Shown: positions 1 through 45,336 of the stretch, in pieces
How positions within the stretch are numbered: position 1 is the stretch's first letter
How the letters are laid out: every line of letters begins with the position of its first letter
Translations under genes and position numbers: made by a program
The notes under the pieces: model-generated
Seen by the model: only the letters and a program-made list of their open reading frames with translations
Told to the model about the DNA's origin: nothing
The model's database searches: none
Assembly (NCBI GenBank): GCA_945888515.1
Contig: CAMDAD010000025.1
Location: forward strand, 1 to 46,842
DNA length: 46,842 bases
From: Akkermansia muciniphila
GTDB taxonomy: Bacteria > Verrucomicrobiota > Verrucomicrobiia > Verrucomicrobiales > Akkermansiaceae
Direction: 5' to 3'

Positions 1-555
1 GAGGGCGCGGGCGTTTTGGAGGTTCTTTTCGGCGTTGGCTTTGGCGGTGGCGAGGCCCTCAAACGCTTCGTCCAGCAGGCCGACGATCCGCTGCTGTTCG
101 GCCAGCGGGGGGACGGGAACGGCGACTTCCTTGAGCTTGCCGCCCGACAACTCTTTGAAGGTCGCGCCCGTTCCAAGTGAGTTCAGCAGGTCAACAATGC
201 TGCTAAGGTAGTAATAGAGAAACTTGGTTTCGATTGGGCTGCGAGGAATAAGACCCTTGCAACCTTGGTTCGTCCCCATCGGTTCGGTGTTGATGACCAA
301 GTGACCGATTGGAGCGCGGGACGAAAGAATCACGGAGTTTGGCGGCAGCATCCGCGCCGAGCTGTCACGCAAGCCCAAGTCCGTAATCTTCCGTTCAGTA
401 TCGCTGACGTATGGGCTGAGACGCTTGCCCATTTCGGCAGGCGTAATCCACCGATGGTGGCCGTCCCAGTATTCGGGCACGCCGGTCTTGGGTGTGCCGC
501 CGTTCATCACGTCGCACACGTCGCCAATCGTCTTTGTCTGCCACCCCTTCTTCAT
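1..555 (-). CDS. hsdS: Type I restriction-modification specificity subunit HsdS (3' end outside window)
   Basis: The N-terminal 185 residues of a specificity subunit, which reads the DNA target for the HsdM/HsdR complex. The first target-recognition domain begins at about residue 5 (WQTKTIGDV, then NGGTPKTG and YWDG), the usual opening of HsdS. It runs into the conserved helical spacer near residue 160 (VPVPPLAEQQRIV). The ATG at 555 is chosen because it starts at this conserved sequence and overlaps an ATGA left from a copy of the hsdM 3' end. The second recognition domain and the stop lie beyond the left edge. It is probably co-transcribed with the hsdM and DUF1016 genes upstream. The family assignment is secure; the DNA target cannot be read. 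Confidence 0.93.
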   Translation of the reverse strand, partial: MKKGWQTKTIGDVCDVMNGGTPKTGVPEYWDGHHRWITPAEMGKRLSPYVSDTERKITDLGLRDSSARMLPPNSVILSSRAPIGHLVINTEPMGTNQGCKGLIPRSPIETKFLYYYLSSIVDLLNSLGTGATFKELSGGKLKEVAVPVPPLAEQQRIVGLLDEAFEGLATAKANAEKNLQNARAL

Positions 556-598
556 AGCAGCGCCTTGATGTTGCCCAGCACTTCCGCGCTCTCGGTTT
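553..598 (-). repeat. Vestigial second copy of the hsdM 3' end
   Basis: On the minus strand these bases read in frame as SAEVLGNIKALL followed by TGA inside CTATGA. This closely matches the true HsdM C-terminus (SAEVLKAIRKLL, about 1742-1785), and the nucleotides align with clear identity at both ends. The copy lies after the DUF1016 stop and immediately before the hsdS start, so the DUF1016 gene sits between two copies of the hsdM terminus. Inference: this is a scar of cassette insertion at an original hsdM-hsdS ATGA overlap. Confidence 0.6.
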
Positions 599-608
599 TC
601 CATGGCTT

Positions 609-1745
609 TCATTTCTCCACCTCCTTCGCCCATTCCATGAGCTTGGTCTGCAATAGCTCCTTGCTGGGCAGGTAGAGCTGATACTCGGAGGCGTGGATGT
701 TCGAGCCTTTGGGCAGGGTGATCTCGACGATGGCTTTATTCTTCTGGCGGCAGAGGATGATGCCAATGGTCGGATTTTCCTCAGGCAGCTTGATCTCGCG
801 ATCGAAGGTGTTCACATACATGAGTATTTGGCCGAGGTTCTGATGGGTGAGGCGACCTAGCTTGAGGTCAATGAGGACGTAGCAGCGCAGGAGGCGATTG
901 TAGAAGACGAGATCGACGAAGAAGTGCTCGCCATCGAAAGTGAAGCGGCGCTGTCTTGCCTCGAAGAGGAAGCCTTTGCCGAGTTCCAACAGAAAGTGCT
1001 CGATGTGGTTGAGGATGGCGCTTTCGAGATCATTTTCGCTGTATCGCGGTTGTTCGTCCAGGCCGAGGAACTCCAGCACGAGCGGCTCCTTGAGCACGTC
1101 GGCGATGGACTCGATGACCTGGCCTTTTTGCGCGAGTTTGCGGATGCCCGCCTTGTCCCGGCTAAGGGCGAGGCGCTCGTAGAGGCTGCTGTCGAACTGG
1201 CGTTTTAGTTCTTTGAGCGTCCAATCCTGGCTGGTGGATTCGATCTCGTAGAAGCTGCGTTCGTCGGGGTTCTTGATGCTGATGAGGAAGACGTAATGGG
1301 ACCAGCTCAGGGAGAAGGGACGAGGATCAGATTTCCCAGTCGTTGACTGGGCAATTGGGGGAAGCTGCGAATTTGCAGACAACATCTGCAAAATGTCGAA
1401 TTGGCCAGACGGTGTCTGGCTTTTCTGACCGCCCACCAATTTTGCAGACGCCGTCTGCAAAATTGACCGCCGCTCCTGATACTGGAGATAAAATGACTTC
1501 ATTGAAGCGAGGTTTCTCGCGGAGAAGCCCATGCCAAATTCCTCAGTCAGCCGCTCCGCCAGTGCCTTGATCACCTCCTGCCCATACTCCGCGCGGCCTT
1601 TCCCTTTCTGTTCCTGCTCGACGATGCGCCGCCCGATTTCGAAGTTCGTATAGACCTGCACGAGGTCCACGCCGCGGGCGACGGTGGCACGGGCGGAGGC
1701 GATGAGGTCTTTGATTTCCGCGAAGAAGGTCTTGGTGAGTTTCAT
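609..1745 (-). CDS. DUF1016 (YhcG-type) PDDEXK nuclease family protein
   Basis: A 378-residue protein of the DUF1016 family, predicted PDDEXK-superfamily nucleases often found inside type I restriction loci. Residues 1-95 form the helical DUF1016_N domain (EIGRRIVEQEQKG, FSARNLASMKSFY). About 95-140 is a linker made of four reiterated units. From about 145 the C-terminal domain runs through LSWSHYVFLI to the nuclease core (FFVDLVFYN, then YVLIDLKLG, which gives the acidic residue and the D-x-K pair). Its ATG overlaps the hsdM stop by 4 bp (ATGA). The length is usual and the catalytic core is intact, unlike the paralogue near the right end. The linker-coding DNA is a run of palindromes. The biological role of the family is not settled. 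Confidence 0.9.
   Translation of the reverse strand: MKLTKTFFAEIKDLIASARATVARGVDLVQVYTNFEIGRRIVEQEQKGKGRAEYGQEVIKALAERLTEEFGMGFSARNLASMKSFYLQYQERRSILQTASAKLVGGQKSQTPSGQFDILQMLSANSQLPPIAQSTTGKSDPRPFSLSWSHYVFLISIKNPDERSFYEIESTSQDWTLKELKRQFDSSLYERLALSRDKAGIRKLAQKGQVIESIADVLKEPLVLEFLGLDEQPRYSENDLESAILNHIEHFLLELGKGFLFEARQRRFTFDGEHFFVDLVFYNRLLRCYVLIDLKLGRLTHQNLGQILMYVNTFDREIKLPEENPTIGIILCRQKNKAIVEITLPKGSNIHASEYQLYLPSKELLQTKLMEWAKEVEK
1335..1465. repeat. Four palindromes inside the DUF1016 linker
   Basis: Four perfect inverted repeats lie in succession: 1335-1351 (arms CCCAGTC/GACTGGG, 3-nt loop), 1372-1392 (TTTGCAGA/TCTGCAAA, 5-nt loop), 1404-1420 (GCCAGAC/GTCTGGC, 3-nt loop) and 1437-1465 (13-bp arms CAATTTTGCAGAC, 3-nt loop). 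Read on the coding (minus) strand they encode LQTASA, SQTPSG, LQMLSA and AQSTTG, a unit of the form xQxxSA repeated every 10-13 residues. A shared core (CAGAC/GTCTG) suggests duplication of one palindromic unit. Confidence 0.9.
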
Positions 1746-3214
1746 AGCAGCTTGCGGATTGCCTTTAGCACTTCGGCGCTCTTGGCATCAAGTGCGGCGA
1801 TTTCTTCCATGATTTCCTGCGGGCTGCGGTGGGTGACTTCCTCGCCGCCGTTGGGGTTTTTCACCGACAGGTCAAAGGTCGTCGGGTCAATGGCCGCCAC
1901 GTCCACGCTCCAGCTTTTGGGCGTCACCGGCCCCTCGTCGGCTGAGGCTCTCGAAGCCTGCAGCGCGATGAACTCGGCGAGGTCGGCGTCGTTGAGCGGG
2001 TTGGTTTTCCCCATGTTGCGGCCGGGGTCGAGCTGGTAGAACCACACTTTGCGCGTCTTCGTGCCTTTATCAAAGAAGAGCACCACGGTCTTCACGCCCG
2101 CGCCGATGAACGTGCCGCCGGGGCAGTCAAGCACGGTGTGGAGGTTGCATTCTTCGAGCAGCTTTTGCCGCAGGCTGACGGAGGCGTTGTCGGTGTTGGA
2201 GAGGAAGGTGTTCTTGATGACGATGCCGGCGCGGCCACCGGCCTTGAGGATCTTAATGAAGTGCTGGAGGAAGAGGAACGCGGTCTCGCCGGTGCGTATG
2301 GGGAAGTTTTGCTGCACCTCCTTGCGCTCTTTGCCGCCGAAGGGCGGGTTGGCGACGATGATGTGGAAGCGGTCCTTTTCCTGCACGTCGGCGAGGTTCT
2401 CGGCGAGCGTGTTGGTGTGGATGATGTTGGGCGCTTCGATGCCGTGCAGGATCATGTTCATGATCGCGATCACGTAGGCGAGGGACTTCTTTTCCTTCCC
2501 GTAGAAGGTGCGCTCTTGCAGGGTGCGGTCCTGGGCGGTGGTGCGCTGGGGGTTCTGGGCGCGGAGGTAATCGAAGCCCTCACAGAGGAAGCCGGCCGAG
2601 CCGACAGCGGGGTCGCAGATGGTCTCGCCGAGCCGGGGCGCGGTTACGGCGACGATGGCACGTATGAGCGGTCGCGGCGTGTAATACTCCCCGCCGTTGC
2701 GCCCGGCGTTGCCCATGTTTTTGATTTTGGCCTCGTAGAGGTGCGAGAGCTCGTGCTTCTCGGTCTGGGACGCAAAGCGGAGTTCGTCGATGTGGTCGAT
2801 GATCTCGCGCAGGTTGTAGCCACTCTGGATGCGGTTTTTAATCTCGCCGAAAATTTCGCCGATCTTGTATTCGATGGTGTTGGGGCCGGTGGCCTTGGCC
2901 TTAAAACCTTGGAGGTAGGGGAATAGCTTGGCGTTGACGAACTGGATGAGGTCGTCGCCGGACAGGGCGGTGTTGTGGTCGATCTTGCCGTCCTTTTTCG
3001 GCGCGGCCCAGGTTTCCCATTGATACGGAGCATCGAGGATGGGGCTGTATTTCCGGCCTTCGAGCGCGGCTTCGGTGGCTTTACCATTCTCCAAGGCGTC
3101 GAGGTATTTCAGGAAGAGGAGCCAGGAGGACTGCTCGGTGTAGTCGAGTTCACTGGTGCAGCCGGCGTCCTTCCAGAGGACGTCGTCGATGTTTTTGAAG
3201 GTTTGTTCGAACAT
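1742..3214 (-). CDS. hsdM: Type I restriction-modification DNA methyltransferase subunit HsdM
   Basis: The N6-adenine methyltransferase subunit of a type I system; it modifies the target chosen by HsdS and forms the restriction complex with HsdR. The N-terminal helical HsdM_N domain covers about 1-150. GEYYTPRPLI (175-184) precedes the SAM-binding motif DPAVGSAGFL (201-210), and the catalytic motif IV NPPFGG begins at 289. At 490 residues it has the usual length. The ATG at 3214 follows an untranslated, repeat-bearing region that should hold the promoter. The stop overlaps the DUF1016 start by 4 bp, indicating translational coupling. No hsdR is visible in the window; it may lie to the left of hsdS. 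Confidence 0.97.
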   Translation of the reverse strand: MFEQTFKNIDDVLWKDAGCTSELDYTEQSSWLLFLKYLDALENGKATEAALEGRKYSPILDAPYQWETWAAPKKDGKIDHNTALSGDDLIQFVNAKLFPYLQGFKAKATGPNTIEYKIGEIFGEIKNRIQSGYNLREIIDHIDELRFASQTEKHELSHLYEAKIKNMGNAGRNGGEYYTPRPLIRAIVAVTAPRLGETICDPAVGSAGFLCEGFDYLRAQNPQRTTAQDRTLQERTFYGKEKKSLAYVIAIMNMILHGIEAPNIIHTNTLAENLADVQEKDRFHIIVANPPFGGKERKEVQQNFPIRTGETAFLFLQHFIKILKAGGRAGIVIKNTFLSNTDNASVSLRQKLLEECNLHTVLDCPGGTFIGAGVKTVVLFFDKGTKTRKVWFYQLDPGRNMGKTNPLNDADLAEFIALQASRASADEGPVTPKSWSVDVAAIDPTTFDLSVKNPNGGEEVTHRSPQEIMEEIAALDAKSAEVLKAIRKLL

Positions 3215-3859
3215 GGATGATTGACAACATCACCCTTAAGAAACTGCTAGAAGACGTCAAGAAGATTCCACGACGCAAGAGATAAAATTTTTACGATCTA
3301 TTGTATTTCACGAAGGACTATTTTTGAAATGCTGAAAAGCTGAAAATGGAAAGTTGGAGAAAGGCAGATTCGCCCCTACAGGGCTCGTATGAGGGGCGGG
3401 GCGTGTTACCCAGGGCGTTGCCGCTGGGCTGTCGAATTTTGCACCGATGGTGCGTAAGAGAGAGGAAGAATGTCACCACAGAGGGCACGGAGTTAACGGA
3501 ATAAGAGAAAGGCAAACAGGAGGAGTGTGATTTGATTTTTATGACGACGGATCTTACGGATGGAGGCAGGATTGAAACATACAGATGAGAATGCATGGTT
3601 GCGCGACCATGTCGTCGATATCGACACGTCAATAAAATATGTCGATATTTATCAAAAAAATCGACACGTCGCGTTCTCGCAGGAGGTTCGATTGGTCAAG
3701 CGTGAGTCACGTAACTAAAGTTCTCCGGTAAAGGACTGGTAGGGAAGACATTTTGAAAAACTGAAAATGGAAATAGAGCAACCGCGAAAGGCGCGAAATA
3801 CCGCGAAGGGGGAAAGGGTGATGAATGGTGAAGAGTGAAGTGACGCCCCGAGGCTTCGT
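3215..3859. other. Gene-free region with degenerate intergenic repeats
   Basis: No convincing gene is seen in these 645 bases. A near-repeat is present at about 3327-3347 and 3753-3772 (GCTGAAAATGGAAA against ACTGAAAATGGAAA). Hairpin-forming GC-rich text lies at 3400-3455 (CCCAGGGCG..CGCTGGG, GCACCGATGGTGC). A CCACAGAGGGCACGGAG string lies near 3476. Paired TCGACACGTC and GTCGATAT motifs lie at about 3615-3668. Such strings resemble decayed dispersed repeats seen between genes in many large genomes; this is from memory and was not searched. The hsdM promoter must lie here, and TACAAT near 3300 on the minus strand is a possible -10 box. Confidence 0.5.
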
Positions 3860-43335: not shown

Positions 43336-43365
43336 GCATCATGATGCCATTTTGAGAAATGTCAA
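43336..43365 (-). promoter_or_regulatory. vapBC promoter and operator
   Basis: On the minus strand a consensus -35 box TTGACA (43360-43365) is 16 bp from CATGAT (43338-43343, -10-like). The perfect palindrome GCATCATGATGC (43336-43347) overlaps the -10, where the VapB dimer could bind and autoregulate. The DNA is at the same time the 3' end of the truncated DUF1016 gene. Confidence 0.6.
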
Positions 43366-44151
43366 CTTTTTCGTTTCACCGCCCACATCCAGCAACACCT
43401 GCCGCCCGACGAAGGCGAATCCCGCGCCCAGCTCCAGCAAAAAGTCCGTTACGTGCTTCACCAACGCGTTCTCGATCTCCCATTCCTGCGCCTCTTCACC
43501 GAGGCCGAGGAAATCGAAACGATACGGGTCTTTCAGCGATTCCCGCGCCAAATCGGACTGTGGTTTGGGCAGGGTCAGGGCGAAATTCGTCACCGCCCCG
43601 CCGCTGCGTTCGATCAGGCGCGACTCGATCTGCATCACAAGGATGTTGCGCGACCAGTTGTGTTCAATAGCTTTCTGGGCATACCAGAGGCGGTCTTCTC
43701 GGGTTTTGAGTTTGTCGAGAAGCACGCAGTGATGGCGCCATGGCAATTTGTCCAGCAACTGGTGGACAATTGCTCCCGATCCCAATTGTCCACCAAATTG
43801 GTGGACAATTGCCCCTTCCAAATGTCCAAGCGCCCCTTGGACAATTTCATCGTCGGGCCAAGCAGCGGCAAAAGCCCTCATGTAGAGCAGATTCGTGCGG
43901 GAAAATCCCTTCATCTCAGGAAAAGTCGCCCGTAGGTCATCGGACAACCGCGTGATGACCTTAGCACCCCAGCCTTGCTCAGCCTGGCGAGCGAGGATGT
44001 CCCGCCCGATCTGCCAGTAGAGCACGATCAATTCTTGATTCACCGCCAGCGTGGCACGCTGCTGGGCGTTGTGAATGCGGTGCTTCAGCTCTGTGAGCCA
44101 AACGGAATAACCTTCGGGCGGTTCAGTGAGATGGATGGAGTTCTCGTTCAT
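43339..44151 (-). CDS. DUF1016 (YhcG-type) protein, C-terminally truncated
   Basis: A 270-residue homologue of the DUF1016 protein at the left end. The N-terminal domain is intact (WQIGRDILARQAEQGWG, FSRTNLLYMRAF). A palindrome-encoded linker follows (about 88-123), then LPWRHHCVLLDKLK, NWSRNILVMQIES and LELGAGFAFVGRQV. The frame then ends in VGGETKKLTFLKMAS, so the catalytic strands with the (D/E)xK pair are absent. It is therefore probably inactive as a nuclease. The truncation point coincides with the vapBC promoter. It lies 12 bp after fic, whose stop is at 44164. Confidence 0.85.
   Translation of the reverse strand: MNENSIHLTEPPEGYSVWLTELKHRIHNAQQRATLAVNQELIVLYWQIGRDILARQAEQGWGAKVITRLSDDLRATFPEMKGFSRTNLLYMRAFAAAWPDDEIVQGALGHLEGAIVHQFGGQLGSGAIVHQLLDKLPWRHHCVLLDKLKTREDRLWYAQKAIEHNWSRNILVMQIESRLIERSGGAVTNFALTLPKPQSDLARESLKDPYRFDFLGLGEEAQEWEIENALVKHVTDFLLELGAGFAFVGRQVLLDVGGETKKLTFLKMAS
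43748..43843. repeat. Three palindromes inside the second DUF1016 linker
   Basis: The inverted repeats are TTGTCCA/TGGACAA at 43748-43769, a 14-bp perfect pair CAATTGTCCACCAA with a one-base centre at 43783-43811, and TGTCCAA/TTGGACA at 43823-43843. On the coding strand they encode IVHQLLDKL, IVHQFGGQL and IVQGALGHL, nine-residue units 12-13 residues apart. The core (TTGTCCA) differs from that of the left DUF1016 gene, but the location in the protein is the same. Confidence 0.9.
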
Positions 44152-44163
44152 TTCATTGGGGAA

Positions 44164-45336
44164 TCAACACTGGGAACGCTTCGGCAAAAAGGCTTGGATG
44201 ATTTCGCGCCGCGCTCTCGCTCTGCCATGCGTTCGCGCAATGAGACCTGTTTGCTCAATCGCATTCAAGTCGCGACCCAGTAAGCGAGGATTGTCCGGTT
44301 TGTAGGCTTGCGCCATGGGCACGGAGAGCGTGGGGATTTTCGATACCTCCACCCAGCCCGGCTGATCTCCGAGTGCCAGCACGAGGTCGCGTTGACGTTT
44401 GTGACTAGCGGAACCCTTCATTTTCCTGAACTCTTCATGCACGTAGTTTTCCCAAGCGACCTTTTGCTGCTGTTCACGCACCATGGTGATTTGAGCGCGG
44501 AGTCCATCCAGCAAGCCTTGGCAAGCGTAGGCCACGAAGGGAAGCACTTCTCCCCCTGACTTGCTAGCACGGTCCAATTGCCGGTAGTATTCCGTTCGCG
44601 TTTTGTTGTAGTGATCGCTGAGCAAATGTGCGGCGGGGACGGGCACCCCGGCATCCATGAGCAGGTAAAATTCCAGCAAGCGTGCCGTGCGGCCATTGCC
44701 ATCACCAAAGGGGTGAATCCATGCCAGATAAAGATGCGCTAGCACTGCTTTCAGAATCGCCAGTGGCATTTGCCCATCCGCCCCCAGTCCCGTAAATTCA
44801 TCATTCAGCCATTGGCAAAGACGCTCCATGAGATAGGGACAATCTTCCGCCGGGGCACCTCGATACACCGTCCCCACGATCACCGAATGGGTGCGATATA
44901 CACCCAGCACCACACCTTCCTCCACCTCCAGATCACGCAACACTTCGCGATTAAAGTGCTGAATCAGTTCCGGAGTCAGCTTGGGATTTTCGCCAGGACC
45001 GACTAGTTCTGACACGATGCGATTGCACTCGCGCAAAATATTTTCAACCTCCTGAGCGAGATAGGCCTGACTGGGCGGGAGTTTCAGCGTGCCCTTGACG
45101 AATTCGAGCACTTGGCTCTCCGTCAGGGTATTCCCCTCAATCGCCGTGGTAGCGCCGACTCCTTTCGCCAAATAAATTTCATGCAAAGACTTTGCTATCT
45201 CTGGTTGCAGCGGTGCCCCCGCCAAATGCTCAAACTTGGAACTTGCCTCACCGAGCTGGAGCCACAGCGAGGGCAAAGCTTGACGCAAATCAAGCTGAAA
45301 TTTGATCCATGGATGTGTCTTTTGATATGTCCTCAT
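44164..45336 (-). CDS. Fic-family protein (class II inhibitory motif)
   Basis: A 390-residue Fic protein; the family transfers AMP or another nucleotide part to a target Ser, Thr or Tyr. The catalytic motif is HPFGDGNGRTAR (about 200), and an inhibitory helix motif TAIEGN near residue 62 precedes it, so this is the self-restrained class II type. A winged-helix-like C-terminal region (QTGLIARTHGRARARREII) follows. It is the second gene of the row, 135 bp after the methyltransferase fragment, and starts with ATG at 45336. The gap holds TTGCAT and TAATGT, possible promoter boxes. The modified target is not known. Confidence 0.93.
   Translation of the reverse strand: MRTYQKTHPWIKFQLDLRQALPSLWLQLGEASSKFEHLAGAPLQPEIAKSLHEIYLAKGVGATTAIEGNTLTESQVLEFVKGTLKLPPSQAYLAQEVENILRECNRIVSELVGPGENPKLTPELIQHFNREVLRDLEVEEGVVLGVYRTHSVIVGTVYRGAPAEDCPYLMERLCQWLNDEFTGLGADGQMPLAILKAVLAHLYLAWIHPFGDGNGRTARLLEFYLLMDAGVPVPAAHLLSDHYNKTRTEYYRQLDRASKSGGEVLPFVAYACQGLLDGLRAQITMVREQQQKVAWENYVHEEFRKMKGSASHKRQRDLVLALGDQPGWVEVSKIPTLSVPMAQAYKPDNPRLLGRDLNAIEQTGLIARTHGRARARREIIQAFLPKRSQC

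Follow-up and report, generated by a model that had tools for sequence, protein, structure and literature searches.

Palindromic units in the codons of yhcG/DUF1016 genes: a candidate DNA site for the encoded nuclease

In operator pairs of the lac and gal type one site lies at the promoter and one within the gene, and a parS site can occur within a parB gene. The ParB-parS and Noc-NBS systems use palindromic sites that are read by a helical HTH domain, and the sites of Noc are described as 16 bp long and scattered over the chromosome (PMC8429893). REP palindromes are high-copy, HuH-processed elements which, in the account of REPtrons given in PMC8266576, are tied to and have co-evolved with TnpA-REP (RAYT). 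Rickettsia palindromic elements (RPEs) are about 150 bp long; in R. conorii they are reported at 44 places, in genes that are unrelated (PMC10969869). DUF1016 and palindromes are both named in PMC4316617, where the palindromes are RPEs; no description of palindromes in yhcG/DUF1016 genes was found in the openly available articles searched.

We analysed a stretch of 46,842 nucleotides from Akkermansia muciniphila, hereafter the window, in which a yhcG/DUF1016 gene sits between HsdM and HsdS in a type I restriction operon (Table 1). Its product matches PF17761 and then PF06250 in Pfam (E 8e-39 and 9.3e-52, both over the curated cut-offs) and thus belongs to the YhcG/DUF1016 family. Members of this family (PF06250/PF17761) occur widely in bacteria, archaea, plasmids and viral contigs, and we know of no function for them.

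The gene carries four perfect inverted repeats at 1335-1465, exactly where the initial annotation had placed them, although the longest has arms of 14 bp rather than the 13 bp first given (1437-1465, with a 1-nt loop). As had been claimed, the reading frame is kept through all four, and each is centred on codon position 1. The repeats had also been said to encode xQxxSA units, a pattern that two of the four peptides follow strictly and two do not, and to fill the linker between the two domains. The unit-coded stretch is indeed modelled with low confidence (residues 95-140, pLDDT < 50) and is read as a predicted flexible stretch, yet it lies inside the DUF1016_N match (residues 10-191) and is not strictly inter-domain.

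Table 1. Genes of the window that are discussed in the text and the inverted repeats within them.
Feature	Position	Strand	Details
yhcG/DUF1016 gene, 378 aa	609..1745	(-)	DUF1016_N and YhcG_C PD-(D/E)XK nuclease; Pfam PF17761, PF06250
Palindromic unit 1	1437..1465	(-)	14-bp arms, 1-nt loop; peptide SILQTASAKLV (unit ILQTASAKL)
Palindromic unit 2	1404..1420	(-)	7-bp arms, 3-nt loop; peptide QKSQTPSGQFD (unit KSQTPSGQ)
Palindromic unit 3	1372..1392	(-)	8-bp arms, 5-nt loop; peptide DILQMLSANSQ (unit ILQMLSAN)
Palindromic unit 4	1335..1351	(-)	7-bp arms, 3-nt loop; peptide PIAQSTTGKSD (unit IAQSTTGK)
Second DUF1016 gene of the window	43339..44151	(-)	nuclease domain matched over positions 2-61 of 157 only
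Unit in second DUF1016 gene	43783..43811	(-)	14-bp arms, 1-nt loop, centre on codon position 1
Another unit in second DUF1016 gene	43823..43843	(-)	8-bp arms, 5-nt loop, centre on codon position 1
Weak third inverted repeat in second DUF1016 gene	43748..43769	(-)	7-bp arms, 8-nt loop, even-centred
HsdM, type I methyltransferase	1742..3214	(-)	end overlaps start of DUF1016 gene by 4 bases (1742-1745)
HsdS, type I specificity subunit	1..633	(-)	extends beyond the window

Chance and base composition are excluded as the origin of this array by shuffling, sliding windows and synonymous recoding. None of 2000 dinucleotide shuffles contained four hairpins (arm of at least 7, loop of at most 5) or an arm of at least 13, and none of 2336 sliding 131-nt windows (grid, step 20) held four hairpins; the only four with three hairpins all lay over 1335-1465. 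Palindrome coverage fell to 0 in 100 synonymous recodings (linkers under 60 nt left out), and the z score for single-strand DNA folding was -6.2. In the whole window, perfect palindromes with an arm of at least 10 and a loop of at most 3 occur only at 1437-1465 and 43783-43811, one in each DUF1016 gene, and the third DUF1016 gene of the genome (L005) also has a palindrome, GCTACGCA-c-TGCGTAGC. The protein of the second DUF1016 gene (43339-44151) looks truncated at its C-terminus, and the gene itself, which had no blastn match in E. coli genomes, lies next to a Fic gene (44164-45336), called SoFic by PADLOC, and to an ORF matching the last part of a type IIG enzyme.

By the tests made, the array is neither an RPE, a REP nor a known RNA element. 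The likeness to RPEs, put forward in the initial annotation, consists in palindromic DNA lying in frame within protein genes, and it does not go further: the YhcG units are about 17-30 nt long (17-29 nt in the window) instead of about 150 bp, they occupy one homologous place in one family, and their core is not dispersed. The strongest core had no exact match outside the gene in this genome and, with up to two mismatches, 8 matches (two of them within the gene) against 14 for a reversed control, while the flanks of other loci gave 16 matches against 14; these counts rule out a dispersed element. REPs resemble the present units in that palindromes are linked to one DNA-processing protein. However, the YhcG units are mostly intragenic, with one to six per gene, and the exact 15-mer core was found at only 12 sites in 276 genomes (reversed control 1), six in DUF1016 genes and six outside, and not in many extragenic copies. 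In addition, YhcG is a PD-(D/E)XK protein and not a HuH tyrosine transposase. Rfam returned no match at the gathering score within 600-3300 of the window.

Only 5 of the 67 sites of the 15-mer core in viral contigs lay in DUF1016 genes, and the core alone is therefore no marker of the family there. A search of 7.3 Gb of plasmids with a 33-mer unit matched 32 records, 15 of them with YhcG/DUF1016 annotated under the match, and a second 33-mer unit matched 14 records, 4 of them so annotated. Among the unannotated plasmid places inspected, one was just upstream of a DUF1016 gene, one was near a broken copy, and seven had no such gene annotated nearby.

The initial annotation had proposed that DUF1016 genes from many genomes be searched for inverted repeats at this point. 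Homologues came from the phylum of the window (117 of 288 genomes matched, the best 30 loci taken), from GTDB species genomes (the best 80 loci of a longer list), from viral contigs (28), from paralogues in genomes already matched and from further phyla; ORFs without flanks, linkers under 54 nt or containing N, and duplicates were left out of the counts. Among 278 distinct genes, a perfect linker palindrome with arms of at least 8 was present in 213, of at least 10 in 136 and of at least 12 in 93, compared with 2.35%, 0.27% and 0.04% of 13,900 synonymous recodings of the same set and 1.4%, 0.4% and 0.1% of 1390 windows downstream in the same genes. Palindrome coverage in this set dropped from 0.202 to 0.008 on recoding. 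Most of the DUF1016 genes sampled thus carry palindromes at the linker, and base composition does not account for them (213/278 versus 2.4%). Near-identical E. coli alleles were kept in this census and dropped from the pairing, codon-phase, mismatch and 304-gene counts below; without the 11 E. coli alleles, 202 of 267 genes had arms of at least 8 and 82 had arms of at least 12. By source, arms of at least 8 were found in 26/34 genes of the own phylum, 64/84 of the species genomes, 21/25 viral genes, 11/11 E. coli alleles and 21/29 paralogues, and by further set in 24/30 for Nitrosomonas (G307), 19/28 for Mucilaginibacter (G297), 7/9 for Butyrivibrio (G300) and 20/28 for Methanoperedens (G313). 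Linker palindromes are therefore present in archaeal, viral and four bacterial-phylum sets, the phyla being inferred from the titles of the records. With mismatches allowed and further loci added, a palindrome was seen in 265 of 304 genes, and 39 had no clear linker palindrome.

In the loci from species genomes and viral contigs, the linkers (15.9 kb) held 44 palindromes with an arm of at least 12 and a loop of at most 3; other ORFs of at least 150 codons (1085 kb) held 7 and noncoding DNA (177 kb) held 22. Their density per kb is thus lower by a factor of about 400 in other ORFs and of about 20 in noncoding DNA. One of the seven in other ORFs is a site preceding the second DUF1016 gene of locus L043. 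A DNA element thus stands inside the coding sequence of most sampled family members, that of E. coli K-12 included, and supplies a predicted ligand for each member. The yhcG palindromes exemplify a DNA-level signal kept for very long periods within the codons of a gene, and the repeated peptide units of DUF1016 linkers should not be taken for protein repeats. Single genomes can hold many DUF1016_N matches (15 in G745 and 12 in G298) and are suited to comparing the units of paralogues.

The shortest genes have a single unit immediately ahead of a conserved SWSHY/PWGHN motif, and longer linkers have two to six. The consensus half-unit consists of (A)ATT, three variable positions, CAGAC(A) and the centre base. 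Counts of codon phase, pairing, CAGAC and mismatches were made on odd-centred palindromes only: 344 of 358 such units have their centre on codon position 1, and the CAGAC inner core, which is common within genes and over long distances, is present in 69 of 255. The most variable positions, -7 to -9, are nevertheless paired within a unit (0.92, 0.91 and 0.73 at -7, -8 and -9), far more than with another unit of the same gene (0.39, 0.43 and 0.37) or, at -7 and -8, with units of other genes (0.33 and 0.26). Complementarity within each unit is thus maintained at these positions without the gene or the protein fixing the sequence.

Structural comparison suggests a possible reader. The model of a minimal homologue (pLDDT 82) has helices at residues 74-89 and 95-108, a unit-coded loop at 109-119 and a further helix at 120-127, and in the genes the palindrome lies in codons immediately after those of the putative recognition helix. 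Residues 48-166 of the model aligned in VIA-align with the DNA-binding domain of Noc bound to its site (6y93; Z 8.8, 103 residues, 3.5 A rmsd), a similar stretch aligned with ParB (7bnk and 7o0n, Z 8.5), and no N-domain fold other than ParB/Noc was among the 50 structure matches listed; for a helical domain, a Z of 8-9 may reflect a common arrangement. The HTH_ParB profile matched 21 of 68 family members at E <= 1 (best 3.7e-5). It also matched the third DUF1016 protein of the genome (E 0.0017, 18.9 bits, below the curated 22.6) and gave no match at that threshold in the two proteins of the window, in K-12 YhcG or in Arthrobacter L401. A PDB sequence search found nothing related at E <= 0.1, and at E <= 10 it listed six names, all weak and unrelated. 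The YhcG motif LSxxHY...LSVRxLE resembles the ParB motif LSxGHARALL...LSVRxxE. Because of the fold match, the HTH_ParB matches and the palindromic nature of NBS and parS, whose test oligomers are perfect palindromes in PMC8429893, the N-domain may read palindromes, and a weak to moderate case can be made for calling it ParB-like.

If the N-domain is such a reader, the palindromic sites of YhcG, like those of ParB and Noc, would be read by a helical HTH domain. Unlike those of ParB and Noc, however, the YhcG sites reach 29 bp or more, differ for most genes and units, and have variable, complementary outer arms; a PD-(D/E)XK nuclease stands after the predicted DNA reader, and the ParBc CTP-binding domain was not matched in the six proteins with complete domain tables. 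Among distant gene pairs, the inner core tracked the helix (r 0.176) slightly more closely than the rest of the N-domain (0.124), and the outer arm did not track the helix (0.022). Partial Mantel tests gave 0.185 for core and helix given the nuclease domain and 0.229 for core and nuclease domain given the helix, values that are inseparable from common descent.

The reading that we favour, at a rough probability of 45%, is that YhcG/DUF1016 genes carry the palindromes as a cis-acting DNA element, most probably a ParB/Noc-like site that the encoded nuclease uses for self-control. On this view YhcG, which joins a putative palindrome-reading N-domain to a PD-(D/E)XK nuclease, would bind the hinge codons of its own gene, directly after those of the putative recognition helix, and in some species also copies just outside the gene; binding would limit yhcG expression by roadblock or looping. 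We infer YhcG binding, regulation by that binding and the inner core as the part that is read. As site and reader lie side by side, we propose that they may be inherited and exchanged as one cassette. A wider and more doubtful reading is that YhcG/DUF1016 proteins are self-addressing nucleases, whose genes would carry, beside the recognition-helix codons, a palindromic address read by their own protein, with address and reader diversifying rapidly and swapping as a cassette. If this were true, the DNA that very many uncharacterised nucleases target could be deduced from the genes encoding them, and the nuclease might serve to police or mark the locus that encodes it.

Copies outside the linker are relevant to such binding. 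Arthrobacter L401 has a site upstream (CAATTGTCCAGACA...TGTCTGGACAATTG) with 17-bp arms that ends 34 nt before the start and agrees with the linker site in 28 of 29 bases. One site upstream and one inside the gene recall the lac/gal arrangement, but across the YhcG family the site is intragenic and usually has no upstream copy. The degraded copy L404 has the same site upstream and a linker copy with one arm base broken, and in L062 the upstream and linker copies share 15 of 17 inner bases. A. crystallopoietes L408 has no palindrome in its linker and two upstream, with a common inner sequence and differing yet complementary outer arms. By our own reading, about 11 of 304 genes have a copy of unit form in their flanks. 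Of 300 genes, 17 had an upstream palindrome scoring at least 9.5, compared with a single one among 300 mononucleotide shuffles, and 10 of the 17 were judged to be of non-unit form; some flanking palindromes may be terminators, since noncoding DNA also has perfect palindromes. Upstream palindromes were not significantly enriched in genes whose linker has none (3/38 versus 14/262, p = 0.46), although compensation of this kind is seen in L408.

A plain sequence-specific operator is weakened as a candidate by the variation from unit to unit at paired outer positions, since outer arms that vary yet stay complementary between units of one gene are unexpected for such an operator. Complementarity of this kind goes beyond simple duplex reading and, we suggest, may reflect extrusion of a hairpin or cruciform. 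The palindromes could be a structure-specific element, bound or processed in extruded form by a nuclease domain akin to Holliday-junction resolvases and NucS, with little reading of sequence. The pairing kept at variable positions and the symmetric or A-C-biased mismatches reported below, which fit pairing of two DNA strands, speak for this explanation, as does the nuclease domain, which in the model aligned with EndoMS (Z 11.4) and a P. abyssi repair endonuclease (Z 11.3) and which PMC1189080 places nearest YraN and archaeal Holliday-junction resolvases. On the other hand, structure alone has no need of an inner core that recurs within genes and between distant ones. Arms of 7-14 bp are, moreover, poor at extrusion, and on balance we consider this explanation unlikely.

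Alternatively, the palindromes might be selfish or mobile sequences tolerated in a flexible linker and kept by template-switch correction between the arms, without benefit to the gene. Linkers are hypervariable, the number of units changes, and single units occur elsewhere, in a small ORF (L318) and between genes (L398). However, the lack of dispersal, the rarity of such palindromes in other coding DNA, and the minimal genes, whose single unit keeps a homologous place and a fixed codon phase across bacterial, archaeal and viral sets, all argue against this. Moreover, 33 gene pairs at least 95% identical, largely E. coli alleles, show 36 one-side breaks and only 4 compensated changes, so correction from arm to arm is not fast. 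At 80-90% identity, 58 pairs of equal length, which are not independent of one another, show 107 compensated changes (both sides altered, still paired) and 186 one-side breaks, and the two sets together indicate that breaks come first and compensation later. In Flavobacterium, genes 88-91% identical elsewhere can bear unrelated palindromes. We regard a purely selfish origin as quite improbable.

Hairpins in the mRNA, suggested in the initial annotation, might control translation or transcript stability of the nuclease, and strong hairpins do lie in or near the transcript, in L062 directly before GGAGGAGG, read as a ribosome-binding site. Selection on RNA predicts tolerance of G-U on the transcribed strand, and the counts are the opposite: stem mismatches on the sense strand comprised 44 G-T and 82 A-C, and other counts gave 72 versus 132 and 123 versus 178. 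Avoidance of a TAA stop in the right arm could account for part of the A-C excess at -9, and without this position there were 35 G-T and 61 A-C. A sense-strand RNA hairpin was rejected on these counts; the mRNA strand is unmarked in the units, and the E. coli copy beyond the stop codon likewise stands against an mRNA role, which we judge very improbable. What remains of the initial proposal is a real array of in-frame palindromes, maintained at the level of DNA. Selection on the peptide with the palindrome as a by-product is scarcely credible, because, despite a recurrent Q-T-x-S pattern and a fixed frame, synonymous recoding abolishes the palindromes, and the palindrome persists through widely differing peptides (QTVSA, YALRR, HTLCD, QQPVA).

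Strain comparison, also proposed at the outset, did reveal changes in copy number. A yhcG match was present in 4417 of 5426 E. coli genomes and covered at least 80% of the gene in 3310 of the 4417. In K-12, three units lie within yhcG, the first of them with one pair broken, and a further one (ATTCTGCAGACAgTGTCTGCAGAAT) starts 15 nt past the stop codon. Alleles L156 and L159 (L159 is from an O157 strain and shares the protein accession) have a linker shorter by 78 nt, in frame, and one unit, compared with three in K-12 and others, among which a unit with a broken pair is frequent. Allele L157 is 97.9% identical to K-12 over bases 1-240 and 96.9% over 421-1128 but only 59.6% over 241-420, the segment comprising the palindromes and, ahead of the linker, the putative recognition helix, and its palindromes differ from those of K-12 at paired positions. 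Three further E. coli loci (L160, L161 and L162) are incomplete yhcG copies, each with a transposase gene beside the break; in L161 the break falls where the third palindromic unit ends on its outer side.

A few palindromes were also seen at other places. Around 2012-2038 of L318/L328 (G157:C97) a full unit, AATTTTGCAGACAgTGTCTGCAAAATT, lies in the same codon phase in a small ORF (MNQENLEIFQSDAELVEEVEFWKEILQTLSAKLV...) between RhuM-like and HsdS-like genes, and the PF06250 matches of that genome are on other contigs. L398 has a single intergenic unit. On a Pseudarthrobacter plasmid (L406:1501-1523), TTTGTGCAGACAcTGTCTGCACAAA lies between flagellin and sigma factor genes in a stretch with no DUF1016 gene annotated. 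Three further long palindromes, with arms of 13, 11 and 14 bp and of non-unit form, lie upstream of the DUF1016 gene of L065.
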